Source of the DNA: a virus
DNA length: 22,678 bases
Strand: one strand, 5' to 3'
Virus record (IMG/VR): IMGVR_UViG_3300031749_000454
Coordinates: 1-22,678 of that record
This document shows, in pieces, positions 2,370-16,543 of this stretch (position 1 is its first letter; each line of letters starts with the position of its first letter). The notes beneath the pieces were generated by a model. It saw only the letters and a program-made list of their open reading frames with translations. It was not told the origin of the DNA and did no database searches. Position numbers and translations under genes: made by a program.

Positions 2370-4309
2370 TCGAGGACGATTTTGACGGCGCAAACGATGT
2401 CGCGCTGGCCTGGCGACAAGGGATGACCCCCGATCCGCTGCTCACCGTGTCGGAATGGGCCGACCAGCACCGCCTGCTCTCGACCAAGGAATCGGCCGAG
2501 CCTGGGCGCTGGCGCACCCGCCGCACACCGTACTTGCGCGAGATCATGGACTGCATGTCACCCACCTCCCCAGTGGAGCGCGTGGTGGTGATGAAGGGCG
2601 CGCAGGTCGGCGGCACCGAGCTGGGGCTGAACTGGGTCGGCTACGCCATCCACCACGCGCCCGGGCCGATGATGATCGTCTGGCCCACCACCGAGATGGC
2701 GCAGCGCAACTCCAAGCACCGCATCGACCCCTTGATCGAGGAGTCGCCCGTGCTGCGCGAGATCATCGCCCCGGCCCGCAGCCGAGATTCCGGCAACACC
2801 GTGCTGATGAAGGAGTTTCGCGGCGGCGTGCTGGTGATGACCGGCGCCAACAGCGCGGTCGGCCTGCGCTCCATGCCGGTGCGCTACCTCTTCCTGGACG
2901 AAGTGGACGCCTACCCGCTGGACGTGGACGGCGAAGGCGATGCAATCAACCTGGCCGAAGCTCGCACGCGCACATTCGCTCGGCGCAAGATTCTGCTGGT
3001 GTCCACGCCGACGATTGCCGGGGCGTCGATCATCGAGCGCGAGTACGAGGCGTCCGACCAGCGGCGCTACTGCGTGCCCTGCCCGCATTGTGGGCACATG
3101 CAATGGCTGCGCTTCGAGCAGTTGCGCTGGGAGCGCGGCCAGCCGGAGACGGCGACTTACGTGTGCGCGTCATGCGGCGCGCTGATTGCCGAGCACCACA
3201 AGCCATGGATGCTCGACCACGGCGAGTGGGTTGCCCAGGCACAGAGCAAGACAGCCGGGTTTCACCTCTCAAGCCTGTACAGCCCGTGGCGAAAGTGGAG
3301 CGAGGTGGCCGCATCCTGGGAGAAAGCATCGATGTCCGAATCCAAGTCGGCAGCCACGATCAAGACGTTCAAGAACACCGAGCTTGGCGAGACATGGGTT
3401 GAGCAAGGCGAGGCGCCCGACTGGCAACGCCTGCTCGAACGCCTGGAGGACTACTCCGGCGTGACTGGTGGCGTGCTGCTGCTCACCGCAGGCGCCGACG
3501 TGCAGAAGGATCGCATCGAGGTGTCGGTGTGGGGCTGGGGTTTCAGGCGCATGGCCTGGCTGATCGAGCACCGCGTGTGCATGGGCGACACGGCAAGCGA
3601 TTCCCCTTGGGCGCAGTTGCAGGATGTGCTGGCGCAGACCTGGATGCATGCCGGTGGCGCCATGCTGCGGCTGTCGGCCCTGGCGGTGGACAGCGGCTAC
3701 AACACCCAGACGGTGTACGACTGGTCGCGTCGGGTGCGCGACAGCCGCGTGCTGGTGGTCAAGGGCTTGTCTCGCGGCGCGGCGCTGATCGGCACGCCAA
3801 CATCCATCGACGTGGCCGCCAACGGCAAACGCCTGCGGCGCGGTGTCAAGGTGTTCCCTGTAGTCGGCGCCATCGCCAAGCAGGAGCTGTATGACAACCT
3901 GCGCAAGACGCCCGATGTGGACGCAGACGGAACCACGGTCTACCCGGCAGGCTACGTTCACCTTCCGCGCATTGATGCCGAGTGGCTGCAGCAGCTCACC
4001 GCCGAGCAGTTGGTGACCCGCCGCAACCGCAACGGCTTTGCGGTGCGCGAGTGGCAGAAGATGCGCGAACGCAACGAAGCGCTGGACTGCTACGTCTACG
4101 CCCGCGCAGCCGCCGCCCATCTCGGCCTGGATCGCTTCGACGAGCACCACTGGGCGCGGTTGCAGCAACAGATCGCGCCGAACACCGAGTTACCCCAGCA
4201 GACTGCGCCGCAGCCCGCCCCTGTTGTCCAACCGGTCACCACACAGCCCGTGGCGGCCTCCACCCCACCGCAACGACGGCGCGTGATCCGCAGCCGCTGG
4301 ATGAGCTAA
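2366..4309 (+). CDS. Phage terminase large subunit, GpA family
   Basis: A 647-aa packaging motor and nuclease that cuts concatemeric DNA and pumps it into the prohead. The N-terminal ATPase carries the Walker A-like VVVMKGAQVGGTELGLN (about residues 73-89) and Walker B YLFLDEVD (174-181, acidic pair D178/E179). A zinc-ribbon-like insert follows with CPHC (239-242) and CASC (267-270). The C-terminal nuclease part shows LTAGADVQKDRIEVSVWGWG (candidate metal ligand D378) and ALAVDSGYNTQ (D442). The last 40 residues are Pro/Gln-rich. The length matches lambda gpA (641 aa). The start is GTG at 2366, overlapping the small terminase stop by 4 nt. Confidence 0.97.
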   Translation: MIEDDFDGANDVALAWRQGMTPDPLLTVSEWADQHRLLSTKESAEPGRWRTRRTPYLREIMDCMSPTSPVERVVVMKGAQVGGTELGLNWVGYAIHHAPGPMMIVWPTTEMAQRNSKHRIDPLIEESPVLREIIAPARSRDSGNTVLMKEFRGGVLVMTGANSAVGLRSMPVRYLFLDEVDAYPLDVDGEGDAINLAEARTRTFARRKILLVSTPTIAGASIIEREYEASDQRRYCVPCPHCGHMQWLRFEQLRWERGQPETATYVCASCGALIAEHHKPWMLDHGEWVAQAQSKTAGFHLSSLYSPWRKWSEVAASWEKASMSESKSAATIKTFKNTELGETWVEQGEAPDWQRLLERLEDYSGVTGGVLLLTAGADVQKDRIEVSVWGWGFRRMAWLIEHRVCMGDTASDSPWAQLQDVLAQTWMHAGGAMLRLSALAVDSGYNTQTVYDWSRRVRDSRVLVVKGLSRGAALIGTPTSIDVAANGKRLRRGVKVFPVVGAIAKQELYDNLRKTPDVDADGTTVYPAGYVHLPRIDAEWLQQLTAEQLVTRRNRNGFAVREWQKMRERNEALDCYVYARAAAAHLGLDRFDEHHWARLQQQIAPNTELPQQTAPQPAPVVQPVTTQPVAASTPPQRRRVIRSRWMS

Positions 4310-9621: not shown

Positions 9622-10377
9622 ATGTCCTATTACGCCTCGTTCCAAGGCCGGGTCTATCTGGCCGAACGCAGCCTGCTCGGCCAGCCCGTCAACGCCCGGC
9701 AGGTGGGCAACGTCTCCAAGCTGAGCCTGGCCCTCAAGACCGAAGTGATCGAGCATTACGAGTCCATGAGCGGCCAGCGCAGCCAGGACTTGCGCATGAT
9801 CAAGCAGAAGTCCGCCAGCGTGAACCTCACCCTGGAAGAGTTCACCGCCGAGAACCTGGCCTTGGCGCTGTACGGCTCTTCGGTGCAGAGCGCTGCGGGC
9901 AGCGTGACCGCCGAACCCGTCGGCGGCGCGGCTGCGGTGGTCGGTGAACGCTATTTCCTCGCCCACCCGAAGGTGTCGGCGCTGGTGGTGACCGATTCGG
10001 CGGCCACACCCGCCACGCTCACTGCAGGGACACATTACACCGCCGACACCGACTTCGGTGCCCTCCAGTTTCTGGATACCACCGGCTTGACCGCGCCGTT
10101 CAAGGCGGCCTACACCTTTGGTGCCGTGTCGGACGTGGGCCTGTTCACCGCGCCGCTGCCAGAACGCTTCCTGCGCTTCGAGGGCGTGAACACCGCCTTC
10201 GGCAACGAGAAGTGGCTGATCGAGCTTTACCGCGTGGCCTTCGATCCGCTCAAAGGGCTGGACGTGATCGGCGACGATCTCAACAAGTTCGAGCTCGACG
10301 GCAGTCTGCTGGCTGACTCCACCAAGCCGTATGACGCCACACTGGGTCAATTCGGCCACCTGCTGCGCCTGGCCTGA
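9622..10377 (+). CDS. Major tail tube protein
   Basis: A 251-aa protein in the tube-protein slot. The N-terminus SYYASFQGRVYLAERSLLGQ, then VGNVSKLSLALKTEVIEHYE and SGQRSQDLRMIKQKSASVNL, fits the beta-sandwich tube family. An insert with ERYFLAHPKVSALVVTDSAA and TAGTHYTADTDFGALQFLDT looks like an added beta domain. The C-terminal NEKWLIELYRVAFDPLKGLD and DLNKFELDGSLLADSTK complete it. It should polymerise into the hollow tail tube. Its TGA overlaps the chaperone ATG (TGATG). Confidence 0.88.
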   Translation: MSYYASFQGRVYLAERSLLGQPVNARQVGNVSKLSLALKTEVIEHYESMSGQRSQDLRMIKQKSASVNLTLEEFTAENLALALYGSSVQSAAGSVTAEPVGGAAAVVGERYFLAHPKVSALVVTDSAATPATLTAGTHYTADTDFGALQFLDTTGLTAPFKAAYTFGAVSDVGLFTAPLPERFLRFEGVNTAFGNEKWLIELYRVAFDPLKGLDVIGDDLNKFELDGSLLADSTKPYDATLGQFGHLLRLA

Positions 10378-10763
10378 TGATCATGGAGCACTCCGTCACC
10401 CTGCCTTCTGGCGAGAGCCTGACCCTGGAGCCGGTGCGACTGGGCGCCCTGCCTGCCTTCGTGCGGGCGGTGCAGCCTTTGGCGCAACAGATCGCCAGCG
10501 GGACCTTCGATGTGCTGCAGGCTCTGGCCGACCACGGCGAGCGCCTGCAAACGGCGCTGAGCCTGGCCACGGGCCGCCCGCGTGCCTGGGTCGAGGCGCT
10601 GGCGCTCGATGATGCCGTGGTGCTTGCGGCGGCCGTCATCGAGGTCAATGCGGGTTTTTTGCAGCAGCGCCTGCTGCCGGCCATCGCCCAGGCCGGCGCG
10701 CAGGTGACGCCTGTGCTGCCGGCAAGCCCATCGATATTGACGCCACCCTCTGCGACTGGATGA
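10377..10763 (+). CDS. Tail assembly chaperone (gpG-like)
   Basis: A 128-aa zero-frame protein: MEHSVTLPSGESLTLEPVRL, GALPAFVRAVQPLAQQI, then helices ending AAAVIEVNAGFLQQRLLPAI. It is directly downstream of the tube gene and upstream of the tape measure, as lambda G. The last 40 codons, after the slippery site, have weaker coding character. In this family the short product coats the tape measure during tube assembly. The stop overlaps an ATG for a -1-frame reading (ATGA at 10760). Confidence 0.8.
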   Translation: MIMEHSVTLPSGESLTLEPVRLGALPAFVRAVQPLAQQIASGTFDVLQALADHGERLQTALSLATGRPRAWVEALALDDAVVLAAAVIEVNAGFLQQRLLPAIAQAGAQVTPVLPASPSILTPPSATG

Positions 10764-10984
10764 TCGACCTGACCACATCGGGCATCGACTACGCCCAGGC
10801 CTGCGCCCTGCCCTGGACGCAGGCGCGCGATCTGCGCGCGGCCGTGCTGCGCGCCCGCTCTGCCCATCTGCTCACCCACGCCGTGGCCTGCCGCGCGGCG
10901 CAACTCCCCGCCGACGCCTGGCAGCGCTGGCTCACCACCCTGGAGGAACACCCCGATGCCCGAGGAACTCAAGCCCCGCTTTGA
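10377..10984 (+). CDS. Tail assembly chaperone frameshift product (gpGT-like)
   Basis: A -1 shift at 10652-10661 fuses the gpG-like N-terminus to the -1 frame, which has no stop from 10613 to 10981. The fusion is about 202 aa. Past the slip, the -1 frame passes KPIDIDATLCDWMIDLTTSG and then IDYAQACALPWTQARDLRAA. Coding-like sequence is therefore present upstream of the ATG at 10760, which argues that the T part is normally made by frameshift rather than by separate initiation. In lambda the GT form recruits the tube protein to the tape measure. Separate translation from 10760 remains an alternative. Confidence 0.75.
10652..10697 (+). promoter_or_regulatory. Programmed -1 frameshift site with downstream hairpins
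   Basis: In the chaperone reading frame two overlapping X-XXY-YYZ heptamers occur: G-GGT-TTT at 10652-10658 and T-TTT-TTG at 10655-10661. A 6-bp hairpin CAGCAG/CTGCTG (10662-10676) and a 7-bp hairpin GCCGGCC/GGCCGGC (10676-10697, 8-nt loop) follow, and they share one base, so they may compete. Both the zero and -1 frames are open here. This is the expected arrangement for lambda G/GT. Confidence 0.75.
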
Positions 10985-11228
10985 CATGACCATCCGGCTC
11001 GATCACCTGCTCACCCTGATCGCAGTGCTGCTGGTCATCTTGCTGGAGTGGAACCCGCACCAGGCGGCGCTGGACAAGCGCATCAGCCTGCTGGAGCAAC
11101 AGAGCGTGCGCCAGCAGCAGATCGATGCGGCGCAGGATCAGCGGCTGCGCGAGGAACTGAACTCCATCCACGACGCGGTGCGCCGCATCGAGGACAAGCT
11201 CGACAGCAGGCGGGGGATAGGCCAATGA
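10956..11228 (+). CDS. Small membrane protein with coiled coil, holin/antiholin candidate
   Basis: A 90-aa protein. GGAGGA 8 nt before ATG 10956 supports the start, which lies inside the end of the chaperone T frame. One membrane segment, LLTLIAVLLVILLEW (about residues 18-32), is followed by a long heptad-rich helix (ALDKRISLLEQQSVRQQQID, LREELNSIHDAVRRIEDKLD). It precedes another membrane protein and the lysozyme, so a role as holin, antiholin or lysis regulator is plausible. No family match is certain. Confidence 0.75.
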   Translation: MPEELKPRFDMTIRLDHLLTLIAVLLVILLEWNPHQAALDKRISLLEQQSVRQQQIDAAQDQRLREELNSIHDAVRRIEDKLDSRRGIGQ

Positions 11229-11437
11229 TGCAGCTCGACCCCCGCTGGCGTGACATCCTGCGCCGCGCCTGGAGCGTGCGCCTGATGCTGCTGGCCGCGC
11301 TGCTGTCCGGACTGGAAGCGGTGTTGACGCTGTTCCCTGACGTGCTGCCGCTATCGCGCTCGATGCTTGCGGTGCTGACACCTGCTGTCATCGGCGCGGC
11401 GTTTGTGGCGCGGCTGTTTGCGCAACGAGGGCTGTGA
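11225..11437 (+). CDS. Two-helix membrane protein, holin candidate (DUF7940-like)
   Basis: A 70-aa protein whose ATG overlaps the previous stop (ATGA). LDPRWRDILRRAWSVRLMLL opens into a membrane helix (LMLLAALLSGLEAVLTLF). A turn follows, then a second helix (MLAVLTPAVIGAAFVARLFA). The DPRWR-ILRRAWSVRL motif recalls DUF7940 phage proteins often labelled holin. It lies two bases before the lysozyme, so it is the best holin candidate in the window. Holin activity is inferred from topology and position. Confidence 0.75.
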   Translation: MMQLDPRWRDILRRAWSVRLMLLAALLSGLEAVLTLFPDVLPLSRSMLAVLTPAVIGAAFVARLFAQRGL

Positions 11438-11438
11438 C

Positions 11439-11936
11439 ATGGCCAACACACGCATCAAGGCGGCGCTGCTGGCGCTCTCGGCCAGCGGCCTGATCGGCAT
11501 CGCCGTACACGAAGGCTATCAGCAGGTGGCGGCGCCGCCCGTCCAGGGCGATGTGCCCACGGTGGGTTTCGGCCACACCGCGCAAGTTCGTGCTGGCGAT
11601 ACCACCACCCCGGTGCGTGCGCTCATTGCGCTGCACGGCGATGTCTCGGCCACAGAGCGCGGCTTGCACGCCTGCCTGGGGGACGTTGCCCTCACCCAAA
11701 ACGAATGGGACGCCTACGTCGCGCTGGCCTTCAACGTCGGCGCGGACAAGGTCTGCCGCTCCACCCTGGCGCGGCTGCTGCACCAAGATCCGCCCGACTA
11801 CACCGGCGCGTGCCAGCAGATTTTGCGCTGGACGTTCTTCCAGGGCAAGAACTGCGCCGACCCCGCGCATCGACGGCTGTGCGGCGGCCTGCTCACACGC
11901 CGCCAGTCCGAGTACCAACGCTGCATGACACCATGA
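11439..11936 (+). CDS. Phage lysozyme, GH24, with signal-anchor N-terminus
   Basis: A 165-aa endolysin that cleaves peptidoglycan glycan strands. The start MANTRIKAALLALSASGLIG is chosen because it yields a signal-anchor-release-type hydrophobic helix (about 8-23). A catalytic Glu follows in HEGYQQ (E25), then GDVPTVGFGHT with T41, then LALHGDVSATERG-type text, NEWDAYVALAFNVGADKVCR and GGLLTRRQSEYQRCM. The usual Asp/Cys nine residues after Glu is Pro (P34) here. Several Cys residues may take part in disulfide control. SAR endolysins are exported by Sec and need holin-triggered membrane release. Confidence 0.93.
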   Translation: MANTRIKAALLALSASGLIGIAVHEGYQQVAAPPVQGDVPTVGFGHTAQVRAGDTTTPVRALIALHGDVSATERGLHACLGDVALTQNEWDAYVALAFNVGADKVCRSTLARLLHQDPPDYTGACQQILRWTFFQGKNCADPAHRRLCGGLLTRRQSEYQRCMTP

Positions 11937-12130
11937 CCCTTCTTTCCCCTTCGCTGCTGCGCATCGGCCAGGTGCGTCAGACCCACGCCTTCGGCGCGGT
12001 GCGCATCACCACCATCGAACGCCGTACCACCGAGCGCATCGTGCATTGCAAGGCCATCGACGGACAGGCCGATCTGATCCTCAGCCCAGTGTATTGCCAC
12101 CGCCTGCCGGTGGTCGCGTGCCATGCTTGA
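11933..12130 (+). CDS. Small hypothetical protein in the lysis cassette, 65 aa
   Basis: The ATG overlaps the lysozyme stop (ATGA) and the stop lies inside the start of the spanin gene, an arrangement typical of a coupled operon. The protein reads MTLLSPSLLRIGQVRQTHAF, then GAVRITTIERRTTERIVHCK, then QADLILSPVYCHRLPVV: a small, basic, beta-rich domain with no signal or membrane helix. No family is recognised. It could be a small nucleic-acid-binding or structural accessory, but nothing in the sequence settles this. Confidence 0.6.
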   Translation: MTLLSPSLLRIGQVRQTHAFGAVRITTIERRTTERIVHCKAIDGQADLILSPVYCHRLPVVACHA

Positions 12131-12701
12131 CCGCCTGCCCGGGCTGTTGTGGCTGCTCACCGCCTTGCTGGCCGCGCTGTTCAAGTGGCAAGCCCTACAG
12201 GCCGACCACGCGCTGCTGGCCCTGCAGGCGCGGACCGCAGCCGAGCGCCTGCACAGTGAACGCCAGGCCAGAGAACAAATCTCCCGCGCCGCTGCCGCGG
12301 CTGACGCCGCCGTGCTGCAAGCGCAAAGCCAGGCACAACGCGCGCTGGCGCAATCTGGAGAACTTCGCCGTGAACTTGCCCGTGTCTCGACTGCCCGTCC
12401 TTGCCTGTCTGCTGACACTCGCCGCCTGCTCCACACCAGCACCGCCTTTGCCAGCAACCACCTGCCCGCGCCCGCCGCAAGCGCTGCTGGCTCCCATGCC
12501 CCCACTGCCGCCGATCCCGAGCGGCAGTCTGCCCAGCAACACACCGCGCCCGTGAGCACCGAGGCTGATGTCGCCGGATGGATTCTCGACGCCGCCACGC
12601 TGTACACCCAATGCCGCGCCCGCCTCGATGCGCTGCGGCAATGGGACGCGCAGACCTTCACCACGCCAGAGCCACCCCATGCACCTGCGTCTGCGCATTG
12701 A
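12123..12701 (+). CDS. Inner-membrane spanin (Rz-like)
   Basis: A 192-aa protein beginning MLDRLPGLLWLLTALLAALF, an N-terminal signal anchor. A long Ala/Gln/Arg-rich coiled coil follows (LLALQARTAAERLHSERQAR, AREQISRAAAAADAAVLQ, AQRALAQSGELRRELARV). The remainder is periplasmic. Topology and place after the lysozyme match Rz i-spanins, which disrupt the outer membrane together with an o-spanin in the last step of lysis. A lipoprotein frame is embedded in it. The last residues overlap the next gene. Confidence 0.85.
   Translation: MLDRLPGLLWLLTALLAALFKWQALQADHALLALQARTAAERLHSERQAREQISRAAAAADAAVLQAQSQAQRALAQSGELRRELARVSTARPCLSADTRRLLHTSTAFASNHLPAPAASAAGSHAPTAADPERQSAQQHTAPVSTEADVAGWILDAATLYTQCRARLDALRQWDAQTFTTPEPPHAPASAH
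12370..12555 (+). CDS. Outer-membrane spanin lipoprotein (Rz1-like), nested in Rz
   Basis: A 61-aa frame (+1 relative to the Rz-like gene) beginning at GTG 12370, with GGAG 9 nt upstream. It has a signal peptide and lipobox: VNLPVSRLPVLACLLTLAAC, cleaved before Cys20. The mature protein is Pro-rich (STPAPPLPATTCPRPPQ, APMPPLPPIPSG), as in lambda Rz1. The nested position, lipobox and Pro content together are diagnostic of an o-spanin. Automatic callers may miss it because of the GTG start and full overlap. Confidence 0.88.
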   Translation: MNLPVSRLPVLACLLTLAACSTPAPPLPATTCPRPPQALLAPMPPLPPIPSGSLPSNTPRP

Positions 12702-13323
12702 TGACCATGACGCGCAGGCTCGCCTGCAGCGCCTGGCACGCACGCTGCCGGAACAGACCCGGCAGGCCGCCCGCGCCGCGCTCAAGGAGGAAGCGCAGTT
12801 CCTCACGCCCTTGCTGCGTGCGCATGTGGCGGCAACACTGCGCGTCTCGCGCCGCAGCTTTCTCTCCTCCATCAAGGCCAAGGTGTATGACGCCAAGACT
12901 GACCGCATGCCTGCGTTGTGGGCTGGGTCGAAAGTGCCCTGGCTTGGCGTGCATGAACACGGCGCGGCCATCGGCGGCAAGATGCTGATCCCCATCAACG
13001 GGCGCATCGGGCGCAAGACATTCAAGCGCATCGTGGATGGATTGATGCGGCAGGGCAATGCGTTTTTCGTGCGCAACAGCCGTGGACAGGTCGTGCTCAT
13101 GGCAGAGAACATTGCCGAGAGCGATCCGCTGCTGCGCGGCGTCAAGAGACGCTATCGCAAGGCCGAAGGCATCAAGCGTTTGAAGCGCGGCGTGGATGTG
13201 CCGATTGCCGTGCTGGTCAACCGCGTGACCGTCAAGCGCCGTTTGCGCGTGGAGCAGATCGTCATGGGGCGTGTGCCCGCCATCGGCGCGCGCCTCATCA
13301 AAACCATGCGAATCACAGACTGA
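12679..13323 (+). CDS. Phage tail protein, DUF6441-like
   Basis: A 214-aa protein. Start ATG 12679 gives MHLRLRIDDHDAQARLQRLA; earlier in-frame ATGs lie within the spanin frame with poor coding quality. Characteristic stretches are RAALKEEAQFLTPLLRAHVA, RVSRRSFLSSIKAKVYDAKT, WAGSKVPWLGVHEHGAAIGG and LIPINGRIGRKTFKRIVDGL, then VLMAENIAESDPLLRGVKRR and KRLKRGVDVPIAVLVNRVTV. I recall this pattern from DUF6441 proteins encoded just before tape measure genes. A tail-assembly or minor tail role is inferred. The protein is very basic (many Arg/Lys). Confidence 0.75.
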   Translation: MHLRLRIDDHDAQARLQRLARTLPEQTRQAARAALKEEAQFLTPLLRAHVAATLRVSRRSFLSSIKAKVYDAKTDRMPALWAGSKVPWLGVHEHGAAIGGKMLIPINGRIGRKTFKRIVDGLMRQGNAFFVRNSRGQVVLMAENIAESDPLLRGVKRRYRKAEGIKRLKRGVDVPIAVLVNRVTVKRRLRVEQIVMGRVPAIGARLIKTMRITD

Positions 13324-13327
13324 AGAC

Positions 13328-16300
13328 ATGGCCCAGCAAGACCGCATATCCATTCTGGTGTCGCTCGAAGGGGCCGATGCCAGCCTCAAGCAAGCCGTGG
13401 CGTCTGCGCGGCAGACGCTCGCCAGTTTCAGCGGCACGGCGCGCGATGCGGGCACTGCCGCACAGCGCAGCTTCGAGCAGGTGGGTGCTGCATCCGAGCG
13501 CATGTCCACCGCCCTGAAGGCCGCGCGCACGCAACTCGTGGCGCTGGCCGCAGGCTATCTGTCGTTCTCCGGGGCGAAGCAGATCATCAGTCTGGCCGAC
13601 GCCTATGCGGGCATTCAATCGCGCCTGAAACTTGCCACCGCCGGACAGCAGGAATTCCAGCGCGCCCTCGACGGCACCTTCGCCATCTCCACCCGCCTGG
13701 GCGCTCCGCTGAACGAAACCGCCACCCTCTACGGCAAGCTGCAAGGCGCCGTGCGCGCGCTCGGCGGCACACAGCAAGACGCGCTGGGGCTGACCGAATC
13801 CATCGGCCAGGCGCTGCGCATCTCCGGCGCCTCGGCGGGTGATTCCGCCGCCGCGCTGCTGCAGTTCGGCCAAGCGCTGGCCTCTGGCGTGTTGCGTGGA
13901 GACGAGTTCAACTCGGTCATGGAGAACGCCCCCCGGCTGGCCAAGGCACTGGCCGATGGCCTGGGCGTGTCCACCGGCAAGCTGCGCCAGATGGCCGAAG
14001 CCGGGCAGCTCACCGCCGACGTGGTGGTCAAGGCGCTGCAATCGCAATCGGGGGCCTTGAAGGCCGAGTTCGCGCAGTTGCCGCGCACCGTGAGCCAGTC
14101 GCTTGCCGCGCTGCAAAACGCCTTCATGCGCTGGGTGGGCGGCGTCAACGAATCCACCGGGGCCACGGCCAAACTCTCCGCTGCGCTGGGCTTCGTGGCC
14201 GATCATCTGGACGCCTTCATGACCGCGCTGCAAGTGCTGGCTGCGGGCGCGCTGGCCAAGATCGCCGCATCGCTGCTGCCGCAATTGGTGGCGTCTTTGC
14301 AGGCCGCAGGTGTGGCCGCCGTGGCAGCGGGCAACAAAATCCGCGCGGCCTTCACAGCCGCCACACTGCCGATCGAGTTCGCCACCGCCGCCGTGGGGCG
14401 GTTCAATGTGGCGCTGGCCGCCGTGGGCAGCTTTGTTGCCGGGTGGGAGATCGGCACCATGCTGCGCGAAAAGTTCGCGCCCGTGGCGGCCATTGGCGAC
14501 ATTCTCGGTGCGTCGCTGGGCGCGGTGGACGGTGCGGTGCGCGCCTTCACCGGCCTGCTGGGCGATGCCTTCACCCAAGGCCCGGTGCAGGCCGTGCGCG
14601 CCTTCGGGGCGACGATCGCAGGCCTGGGCACGGCCTGGCTGGACATGACGGCGCAGGCCCGCATCGCCCTGATGGGCACCGAGCAGCTCGTGCAAACGCA
14701 GGGCGCGAGTCTGCAAGAACTGCAAGCCCGTATCTCCGCCGTGCGCCTTGGACTGGCCGAGAGTGTGAGCAGCGGCATGAAGGCCGTGGAAGAGGCCACG
14801 GCCAAGCTCGACGCCGTGGTGAACAAGCTCGATCAGGACGCCTCGAAAGCGCAGGGCACGGTGAATGCCGCACTGTCGGGCATTGCCGCCGTGCGTGACG
14901 CGCAGACCGCCGCCATCGCCCAAAGCCTGGACGAGCAGACCGCCGCCGTGCAGCGCAGCGTGCAGGCGCAGAAGGACTTGCTCGACCGGCAGACCGTCAG
15001 CCAGCAGCAGCGCATCGCCACCGAAACCGCCCTGCTGGTGCAGCAGAACACCGAACAAGCCGCCATGCGCCAGCAGGCCACCGCGCAGACGCTGGACTTG
15101 CTGCAGCAAGAAACCGCCGCCAAACTGGCCGCCGCCGCCACCGATGGAAAAACCCTGGAAGAACGCCGCAGCAAGGCGCTGGGGGTGGAAGAGAGCATTC
15201 TCACCGGCCAGCGCGACGTGTGGGCGCGTGCGGCCACCGCGTATCAGCAGCACATCAACGCCCTGATCGGCGAAGAGCAACGGCACCTGCAAGCCGCGTT
15301 TGCCCTGGAGCAGTCGCGGCTGCTGATCAACGCCGACATCGAGAGCAAAATCCGCGAACTCCGGCGCCAGACCATGACCGATGGCGAGGCGCTGGAAGAT
15401 CGCAAGACGCAGATCGCGCAGTTGCAATCCGCCGCCCGCCAGGCCATCGCGCAGGGCGAGTACGACAAGGCCAAAGAATTCGCACAGCAAAGCGTGGCCC
15501 TGGCCGAAGCCGTGGGGCGCACCAAGGGCGAAGAAGAAGGCGCCATCACCAACCTGCGCTCCGCACAGACCCTGCTCAATCAGGCCATCGCCAATGAGGA
15601 AGCGGCGCACAAGCAGGCTGCCGCCGCAGCCGCCACGGCGAGAGCCGGGATCGAACAGCAGCTCGCCACCGCCAAGACGCAGGTGGAAGAACTGAACAAT
15701 GCCATCGCCCAGGTGCAGGCGGTGCGGCTGGAGGTGGACGCCAGCCGCATCACGCCGGCGCTGGCGGATGTGCAGAAGGCCATCGCAGAAAAAGAGGTTT
15801 TACTGCCCATTCAAGCCGATCTGAAAGCCGCGCAACAGAAGTTGCAGGAGTTCGACACCGCGCTCAAGGCAGGCAAGAGCATCACGCTCGACGCCGACAT
15901 CACCCAGGGGCGGGCCGCGCTGGACAGGCTGCAAGCCTACGCCAAGGAAAAAGCCAACATCGACCTGCAGTTGAGCACCGCCGCCGCGCAGGGCCGCATC
16001 GCCGATCTGAGCACGCGCATTCAGACCCTCAACACCCTGGAGACGGCCAGCCGCCATGTGGTGAAGGACAACGTGCCGCAGGTGCGCACCGAGATCGACA
16101 GCCTGCAAGGCCGCAACACCACCAGCACCCACACCATCACCGTGCGGCAGGTGGAGGCGCGTGCGACAGGCGGCATGGTGGGGGAACTATCCGGGGCGTC
16201 ACGCCGTCTGGCCGGTGGCGGGCGGGTGAGCGGCCCAGGCACCGAGACCTCGGACTCCATTCCGGCCCTGCTTTCGCGCGGCGAGTTCGTGGTGCGCGCC

Positions 16301-16543
16301 GCTGCGGTGCGGCAGTTCGGCGAAGCCTTCTTTGCCAGCCTCAATGCCGGGTTCATGCCGCCGCAGCCCGCGCGCTTTGCCGCGGGCGGCCTGGTCGGCG
16401 TGGACAGCACAGCGCCCGCGCCCATGACAGGCGCACCCATCCATCTGCACTTTGGGCAACAGCAGGTCGGACCGCTCTACGCCGCGCAGGACGTGGCCGA
16501 GCAACTGCGCCAGGCTGCATTGATGTTTGGAGCCGTGGCATGA
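13328..16543 (+). CDS. Tail tape measure protein
   Basis: A 1071-aa protein that sets tail length and leaves the tube on infection. Residues about 80-240 match the tape-measure N-terminal domain: LADAYAGIQSRLKLATAG, LGAPLNETATLYGKLQGAVR, SGVLRGDEFNSVMENAPRLA, and GVSTGKLRQMAEAGQLTADV. Hydrophobic segments (about 290-380) may insert in the host membrane. Long Gln/Ala coiled coils fill 480-920. The C-terminus has the typical SGPGTETSDSIPALLSRGEF followed by VVRAAAVRQFG. At roughly 0.15 nm per residue the tail would be about 160 nm. The start is ATG 13328; an upstream in-frame ATG (13271) overlaps the previous gene. Confidence 0.95.
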   Translation: MAQQDRISILVSLEGADASLKQAVASARQTLASFSGTARDAGTAAQRSFEQVGAASERMSTALKAARTQLVALAAGYLSFSGAKQIISLADAYAGIQSRLKLATAGQQEFQRALDGTFAISTRLGAPLNETATLYGKLQGAVRALGGTQQDALGLTESIGQALRISGASAGDSAAALLQFGQALASGVLRGDEFNSVMENAPRLAKALADGLGVSTGKLRQMAEAGQLTADVVVKALQSQSGALKAEFAQLPRTVSQSLAALQNAFMRWVGGVNESTGATAKLSAALGFVADHLDAFMTALQVLAAGALAKIAASLLPQLVASLQAAGVAAVAAGNKIRAAFTAATLPIEFATAAVGRFNVALAAVGSFVAGWEIGTMLREKFAPVAAIGDILGASLGAVDGAVRAFTGLLGDAFTQGPVQAVRAFGATIAGLGTAWLDMTAQARIALMGTEQLVQTQGASLQELQARISAVRLGLAESVSSGMKAVEEATAKLDAVVNKLDQDASKAQGTVNAALSGIAAVRDAQTAAIAQSLDEQTAAVQRSVQAQKDLLDRQTVSQQQRIATETALLVQQNTEQAAMRQQATAQTLDLLQQETAAKLAAAATDGKTLEERRSKALGVEESILTGQRDVWARAATAYQQHINALIGEEQRHLQAAFALEQSRLLINADIESKIRELRRQTMTDGEALEDRKTQIAQLQSAARQAIAQGEYDKAKEFAQQSVALAEAVGRTKGEEEGAITNLRSAQTLLNQAIANEEAAHKQAAAAAATARAGIEQQLATAKTQVEELNNAIAQVQAVRLEVDASRITPALADVQKAIAEKEVLLPIQADLKAAQQKLQEFDTALKAGKSITLDADITQGRAALDRLQAYAKEKANIDLQLSTAAAQGRIADLSTRIQTLNTLETASRHVVKDNVPQVRTEIDSLQGRNTTSTHTITVRQVEARATGGMVGELSGASRRLAGGGRVSGPGTETSDSIPALLSRGEFVVRAAAVRQFGEAFFASLNAGFMPPQPARFAAGGLVGVDSTAPAPMTGAPIHLHFGQQQVGPLYAAQDVAEQLRQAALMFGAVA

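Follow-up and report, generated by a model that had tools for sequence, protein, structure and literature searches.

A candidate -1 programmed frameshift at a conserved T run in the tail assembly chaperone genes of an IMG/VR virus

The stretch of DNA analysed (the window; 22,678 bases) spans the whole of the viral record IMGVR_UViG_3300031749_000454 and encodes a lambda-type terminase with GpA_ATPase and GpA_nuclease domains. The gene for a tail assembly chaperone, G, follows that for the major tail tube protein and precedes the tape measure gene, with lysis genes in between (Table 1). G ends in a TGA (10761–10763), while the -1 frame has no stop between 10613 and 10981 and is closed by a TGA at 10982–10984. 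A product of slippage from G into this frame (GT) would be about 202 aa long. The preliminary description, made from the letters of the DNA alone, had proposed such a frameshift. The two heptamers that it named are in the G frame, and the positions that it gave for the open -1 frame and for an internal ATG (10760–10762) proved to be exact.

Table 1. Features of the chaperone region, in window coordinates
Feature	Position	Strand	Evidence or remark
Gene for the major tail (tube) protein, 5' of G	9622–10377	+	phrog_807, E 2.4e-78; NCBIfam tail_tube_6XGR, E 1.3e-60
G, 0-frame tail assembly chaperone, 128 aa	10377–10763	+	phrog_1442, E 8.4e-22; Pfam DUF6631, E 1.4e-6
-1 frame, stop-free stretch; would code for linker and T after the slip	10613–10984	+	Reading-frame check
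SD-like GAGG, candidate stimulator	10641–10644	+	10 nt before T TTT TTG
In-frame heptamer G GGT TTT	10652–10658	+	G frame; D3112 has the same G GGT TTT TTC arrangement
In-frame heptamer T TTT TTG, conserved slippery site	10655–10661	+	Aligned T_TTT_TTN in relatives
Possible hairpin 1, touching the heptamer	10661–10677	+	Folding; no better than shuffles
Possible hairpin 2, 30 nt downstream	10692–10723	+	Folding; no better than shuffles
T domain with recognisable homologues (start approximate)	10730–10984	+	54% identity to T of L141; HMM matches
Internal ATG in ATGA overlap, probably a geometric coincidence	10760–10762	+	GTC in relatives; no SD seen
Tape measure gene	13271–16543		Profile match

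Ahead of the tape measure gene and 3' of T (10956–12701), the window carries genes for a small protein of unclear family, a DUF7940 protein, a lysozyme and an Rz-like spanin, and these lysis genes precede a DUF6441 gene. A search of IMG/VR with the DUF6441 gene gave no match. By eye, a DUF6441-like ORF lies directly 3' of T in locus L001, and similar lysis-region ORFs are found in a different order at 4304–5988 in L141, the nearest relative of the window.

The heptamers GGGTTTT and TTTTTTG are the sole in-frame X_XXY_YYZ sites within G. They overlap, as had been claimed, and in the window either may be used. The slip codons there encode Gly-Phe-Leu, in place of the Asp-Phe-Phe of the family, and the relatives in the first set described below offer the T heptamer alone because their preceding codon is GAT. 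The expectation by chance was estimated by resampling synonymous codons (20,000 draws, with the codon usage of 17 window genes whose coordinates were set by hand). At least one in-frame heptamer with an A/T slipping codon arose in 4.0% of the draws, two or more in 0.16%, and an in-frame T6/A6 site in 0.48%. Taken on its own, the window thus has a slippery site moderately beyond chance. The openness of the -1 frame is weak evidence, since the GC-rich record contains 132 ORFs that are 80 aa or longer.

The preliminary description had proposed a comparison with relatives as a check on the heptamers, and most relatives keep the T heptamer. The first set consisted of 135 loci, one found via G, 54 found in genomes via the tail tube protein and the best 80 of 179 found in viral contigs. 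Of these 135, 124 have an in-frame T_TTT_TTN at the codon pair that aligns with the site in the window (121 TTTTTTT, two TTTTTTC and one TTTTTTA). The 11 loci without a counted site were mostly truncated, broken or made up of other sequence at this position. In four (L066, L068, L007 and L010) the sequence stops shortly past the tail tube gene, one (L054) is rearranged at the locus, and in another (L055) two N's adjoin six T's. A cut contig (L047) and a locus with a broken G frame (L016) contain the T run and were left uncounted, and no T6 was found within 600 nt past the tail tube match in three others (L012, L021 and L044). The G frame is also broken in L023, which is short of one T in the run; in both L023 and L016 this may be decay or sequencing error. 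A second search, based on G, gave 76 loci (the best 80 of 384, minus four already collected), and T_TTT_TTN was found in all 76 (58 TTTTTTT and 18 TTTTTTC). These include 42 loci that are new relative to the first set, the contigs being partly common to both searches.

Codon choice at the site was compared in 71 representatives less than 93% alike, among them the window and the phages D3112, Summit and VW-6B; these sequences are related and not independent. The first Phe codon is TTT in 71/71, against a TTT background of 22%, and the second codon is TTT in 67 of 70 and TTC in the remaining three. The preceding Asp codon is GAT in all 69 (background 34%), while AAC and AAT vary freely at a conserved Asn just upstream of the site. 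Constraint is strongest at the T of GAT, at TTT and at the codon that follows. Elsewhere in the loci of the first set, in the tail tube genes and the remainder of G, 360 Phe codons are TTT and 1662 are TTC, so that TTT TTT is almost invariant in genes with a general preference for TTC. Weaker skews were seen 3' of the site (ACG in 36/37, GTG in 57/59 and ACC in 37/41 representatives), for which the overlapping frame or the relatedness of the sequences may be responsible. Some of the codon bias may then have nothing to do with slippage.

Both hairpins suggested earlier as stimulators do fold, but they are not stronger than those of shuffled sequences (z -0.7 to -1.6), which lends no support to a stimulatory role. 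Folding of nine stretches from six sequences gave z values from 1.0 to -1.6 and no shared structure by eye. A better candidate is the GAGG upstream of the run. One of five SD-like 4-mers of our own choosing was found 7–13 nt before the run in 53 of the 71 representatives, compared with 109 of 1633 other in-phase places, and 87 of these 109 control matches came from a single upstream stretch (29/71 at each of the offsets -33, -30 and -27). The Glu codon that supplies the GAGG is GAG in 52/55 representatives, against a background of 64%. When the pattern GAGGTNAAYGCNGGNTTTTTTB was searched for, a single contig (L140) was found, and this gene arrangement was not seen in the stretch listed for it.

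L141 has a T_TTT_TTC site, and its G and T are 52% (over the alignment) and 54% identical, respectively, to those of the window. Direct searches with the window T gave no match in IMG/VR or phages, and those with the L141 T gave none in plasmids or phages. A two-row T profile (A2) matched only L141's own contig in IMG/VR and nothing in seven genomes. In 369 genomes of the class it gave one doubtful match, which contains a stop, and in 399 genomes of the order it matched six places in four genomes. HMM matches to T were found in genomes G417, G465, G394 and G423. T lies in the -1 frame behind a T run in L141 and in the loci of G417, G465 and G394, though the G394 copy looks decayed and has no T stop within the stretch; the match in G423 is a T tail without its G. 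G417 has three copies of the chaperone module (L219, L223 and L224), two of which are identical in the parts displayed and the third of which has a different G N-terminus. At approximately bases 1–1500 of L222, a T-like tail fragment appears by eye to run straight out of a CRISPR-like repeat array, which may be an insertion or an assembly artefact.

A profile of the T of 113 distinct relatives did not match the -1 frame of the window significantly (E 3.4), and the fused GT of the window matched neither phrog_13355 nor phrog_14432. The homology of the window T is thus carried by L141 and the loci of the four genomes. An HMM of fused GT scored the window fusion at 100.6 bits and the window G frame alone at 91.9 bits. 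Among other relatives, phrog_13355 matched the T part in three of the four tried. Together with phrog_14432 (191 aa), likewise a family of unknown function, it accounts for matches in L003, L005 and L001. Phrog_14432 covers T and, in L003, part of G in the fused product, residues 59–192 aligning near-colinearly to profile positions 54–189 (E 8.3e-6). Recognisable homology between the T of the window and that of L141 begins about 9–10 codons before the ATG at 10760, which bears out only in part the earlier claim that the -1 frame is coding-like well before this codon. Over the ten codons before the ATG, however, frame 0 is at least as conserved (6/10 identical by eye, against 4/10 in the -1 frame), and that part of the claim is accordingly unproven.

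The ATG at 10760 had been put forward as a second way to make T. Re-initiation there, alone or beside frameshifting, would yield T as a separate protein, and such a reading would draw on the ATGA overlap of the window, on an ATGA at another place in L141, on a T-frame ATG near the G stop in D3112 and on a GTG or ATG there in L219, L220 and L224. In PaMx73 a putative AUG overlaps the stop (PMC4378225). The window ATG, however, is replaced by GTC in all five T-clade loci compared (L141, L219, L224, L220 and L221), and no Shine-Dalgarno sequence was seen before it in the window. The ATGA of L141 lies 14 codons later than that of the window, and a start at that position would remove the conserved beginning of T.

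Start codons were also surveyed in 116 distinct G/T pairs, which include the window and three named phages and leave L141 outside. In 68 pairs the T frame has no ATG, GTG or TTG between the slip and a point 30 nt beyond the G stop, and there T seems to be reachable by frameshift alone. Such a codon exists in the other 48 pairs, and in eight of these it occurs at most 2 nt beyond the beginning of the stop. The stop context is CTGA in 107 of the 116 pairs and ATGA in one, the window. As the -1 frame across a TGA stop always reads NTG, a start-like codon is to be expected there without any function, and the ATGA overlap in the window is probably a coincidence. On this evidence we consider it improbable that T is made by re-initiation, and the second route suggested earlier is not upheld.

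The seven T's present in most relatives would suit slippage of RNA polymerase, which is known to occur on T or A runs in bacteria. Runs of six T's are short for this, and no more than six, followed by G or C, are present in the window and in several relatives. The run is also codon-phased as X_XXY_YYZ, and the constraint includes the T of GAT, as tandem tRNA slippage needs. Because of this phasing, and of the short T6 in several members, slippage of tandem tRNAs is favoured and a transcriptional origin is very improbable. An incidental T run within coding sequence, accompanied by a -1 frame that is open by chance in GC-rich DNA, can be set aside as exceedingly improbable, for the many long ORFs in the record and the occasional T6/A6 site among the resamplings are countered by the near fixation of TTT TTT despite the preference for TTC and by the conservation of T at the protein level.

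We conclude that the locus very probably encodes a lambda-type G/GT chaperone in which programmed -1 frameshifting on the T run would make a G-T fusion. The frameshift proposed in the preliminary description is thereby strengthened, since the in-frame site is conserved and the T frame often lacks a start of its own, the opposite of relatives that lack the heptamers or keep T only as a separately started gene. Translation of G by most ribosomes would end at the stop codon that begins at 10761. While the P and A sites hold GGT-TTT or TTT-TTG, a minority of ribosomes would move back by one base within 10652–10661 and continue in the -1 frame as far as 10984, which would produce GT. By analogy with lambda, G is expected to coat the tape measure protein, with the T part bringing in the tail tube protein.

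In the window, 99 nt separate the slippery site from the G stop, and the corresponding distance is 81–138 nt in 115 of the 116 distinct pairs, with a median of about 96 nt. The average distances quoted for other phages, 26 and 36 nt, are shorter (PMC10885494). A structure model was built with AlphaFold2 on 48 G sequences (pLDDT 83.8). DUF6631 was matched by 43 of 48 G proteins, and phrog_1442 also matches the fused proteins of L003 and L001. The model consists of strands and helices, with the last helix at residues 92–109 and the slip codons at residues 93–95. Given the position of the site, 99 nt before the stop, GT would be without most of this predicted helix and without the end of G that follows it, while acquiring T. 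It is conceivable, if somewhat doubtful, that the frameshift swaps the end of the chaperone and does not merely extend it, that the two forms could differ in how they bind the tape measure protein, and that the GAGG and not a hairpin sets the rate.

Comparison of the model with solved structures placed the HK97 chaperone 2OB9 in the first row, with a Z score of 5.2, which is below the tool's clear level (rmsd 4.0, 82 residues aligned), and 3klu and 5ir0 tied with it at the top; the result is weak, though it makes sense for a chaperone. With Foldseek there was no match in the PDB at E <= 0.001 (2OB9 had an E of 2.5), and a search of this type in BFVD gave one match, an uncharacterised protein of Stenotrophomonas phage DLP_5. 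The collection of papers searched contained none on DUF6631, and none on Delepquintavirus with a frameshift. The frameshift reading suggests a function for families that are otherwise blank, DUF6631 as the G part and phrog_13355 as the T part in three of four relatives tried. T parts of this kind can readily be overlooked or listed as small genes of their own, and the family provides a large natural set for testing a shift site so far upstream and an SD-like stimulator ahead of it.

The slippery site of lambda is GGGAAAG and lies near the 3' end of G, unlike the T run of the window. That the T run differs from the lambda site, as had been pointed out, is correct and is not new. P2 itself uses TTTTTTG for the -1 shift in its E/E+E' genes, the same heptamer as in the window (PMC3091744). 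Long-tailed phages commonly have a -1 shift in their chaperone genes, and the lambda G/GT genes occupy the same position between the tail tube and tape measure genes and yield a short and a long chaperone (PMC5009743). In an HK97-like cluster of chaperones, shift efficiencies of 6 and 7% were measured for two genes (PMC3711429). The Mu-like Burkholderia phage KS10 was reported to be without such a site (PMC2628397).

The E/E+E' proteins of P2, a phage with a contractile tail, appear to differ in family from the window G, and the P2 GpE family was absent from the Pfam matches of the window G (E 0.1) and of 48 G proteins (E 0.01). No hairpin was found in the P2-like phages of one study (PMC3091744). 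PaMx73, of the D3112 group, has a T_TTT_TTC 43 codons before the stop and an AUG further downstream (PMC4378225). D3112 has a tail tube protein homologous to that of the window, and it has T_TTT_TTC at the same aligned codon pair together with an overlapping GGGTTTT, as in the window, yet its G is only 19% identical to the window G. Both are Mu-like phages, whereas the window has a lambda-type terminase. Stenotrophomonas phage Summit (MZ326862) has a homologous tail tube protein, a T_TTT_TTT site and an annotated frameshift product, but its tape measure gene directly follows the chaperone, with no lysis genes between them.

The tail tube protein of the window matched 231 phage records, all at less than 60% identity, and 13 plasmid records, while the phage collection held no match for the window DNA from 9622 to 11936 or for the G protein. 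The frameshift of dnaX has an upstream SD-like stimulator, which the GAGG in the window family resembles. The type of frameshift is therefore already known from P2, PaMx73 and lambda, and the family in which it is proposed here is little annotated. Added here are the family-wide conservation of the site, the probable upstream stimulator, the position of the site about 96 nt before the stop, and the likely identity of DUF6631 and phrog_13355 as the G and T halves.
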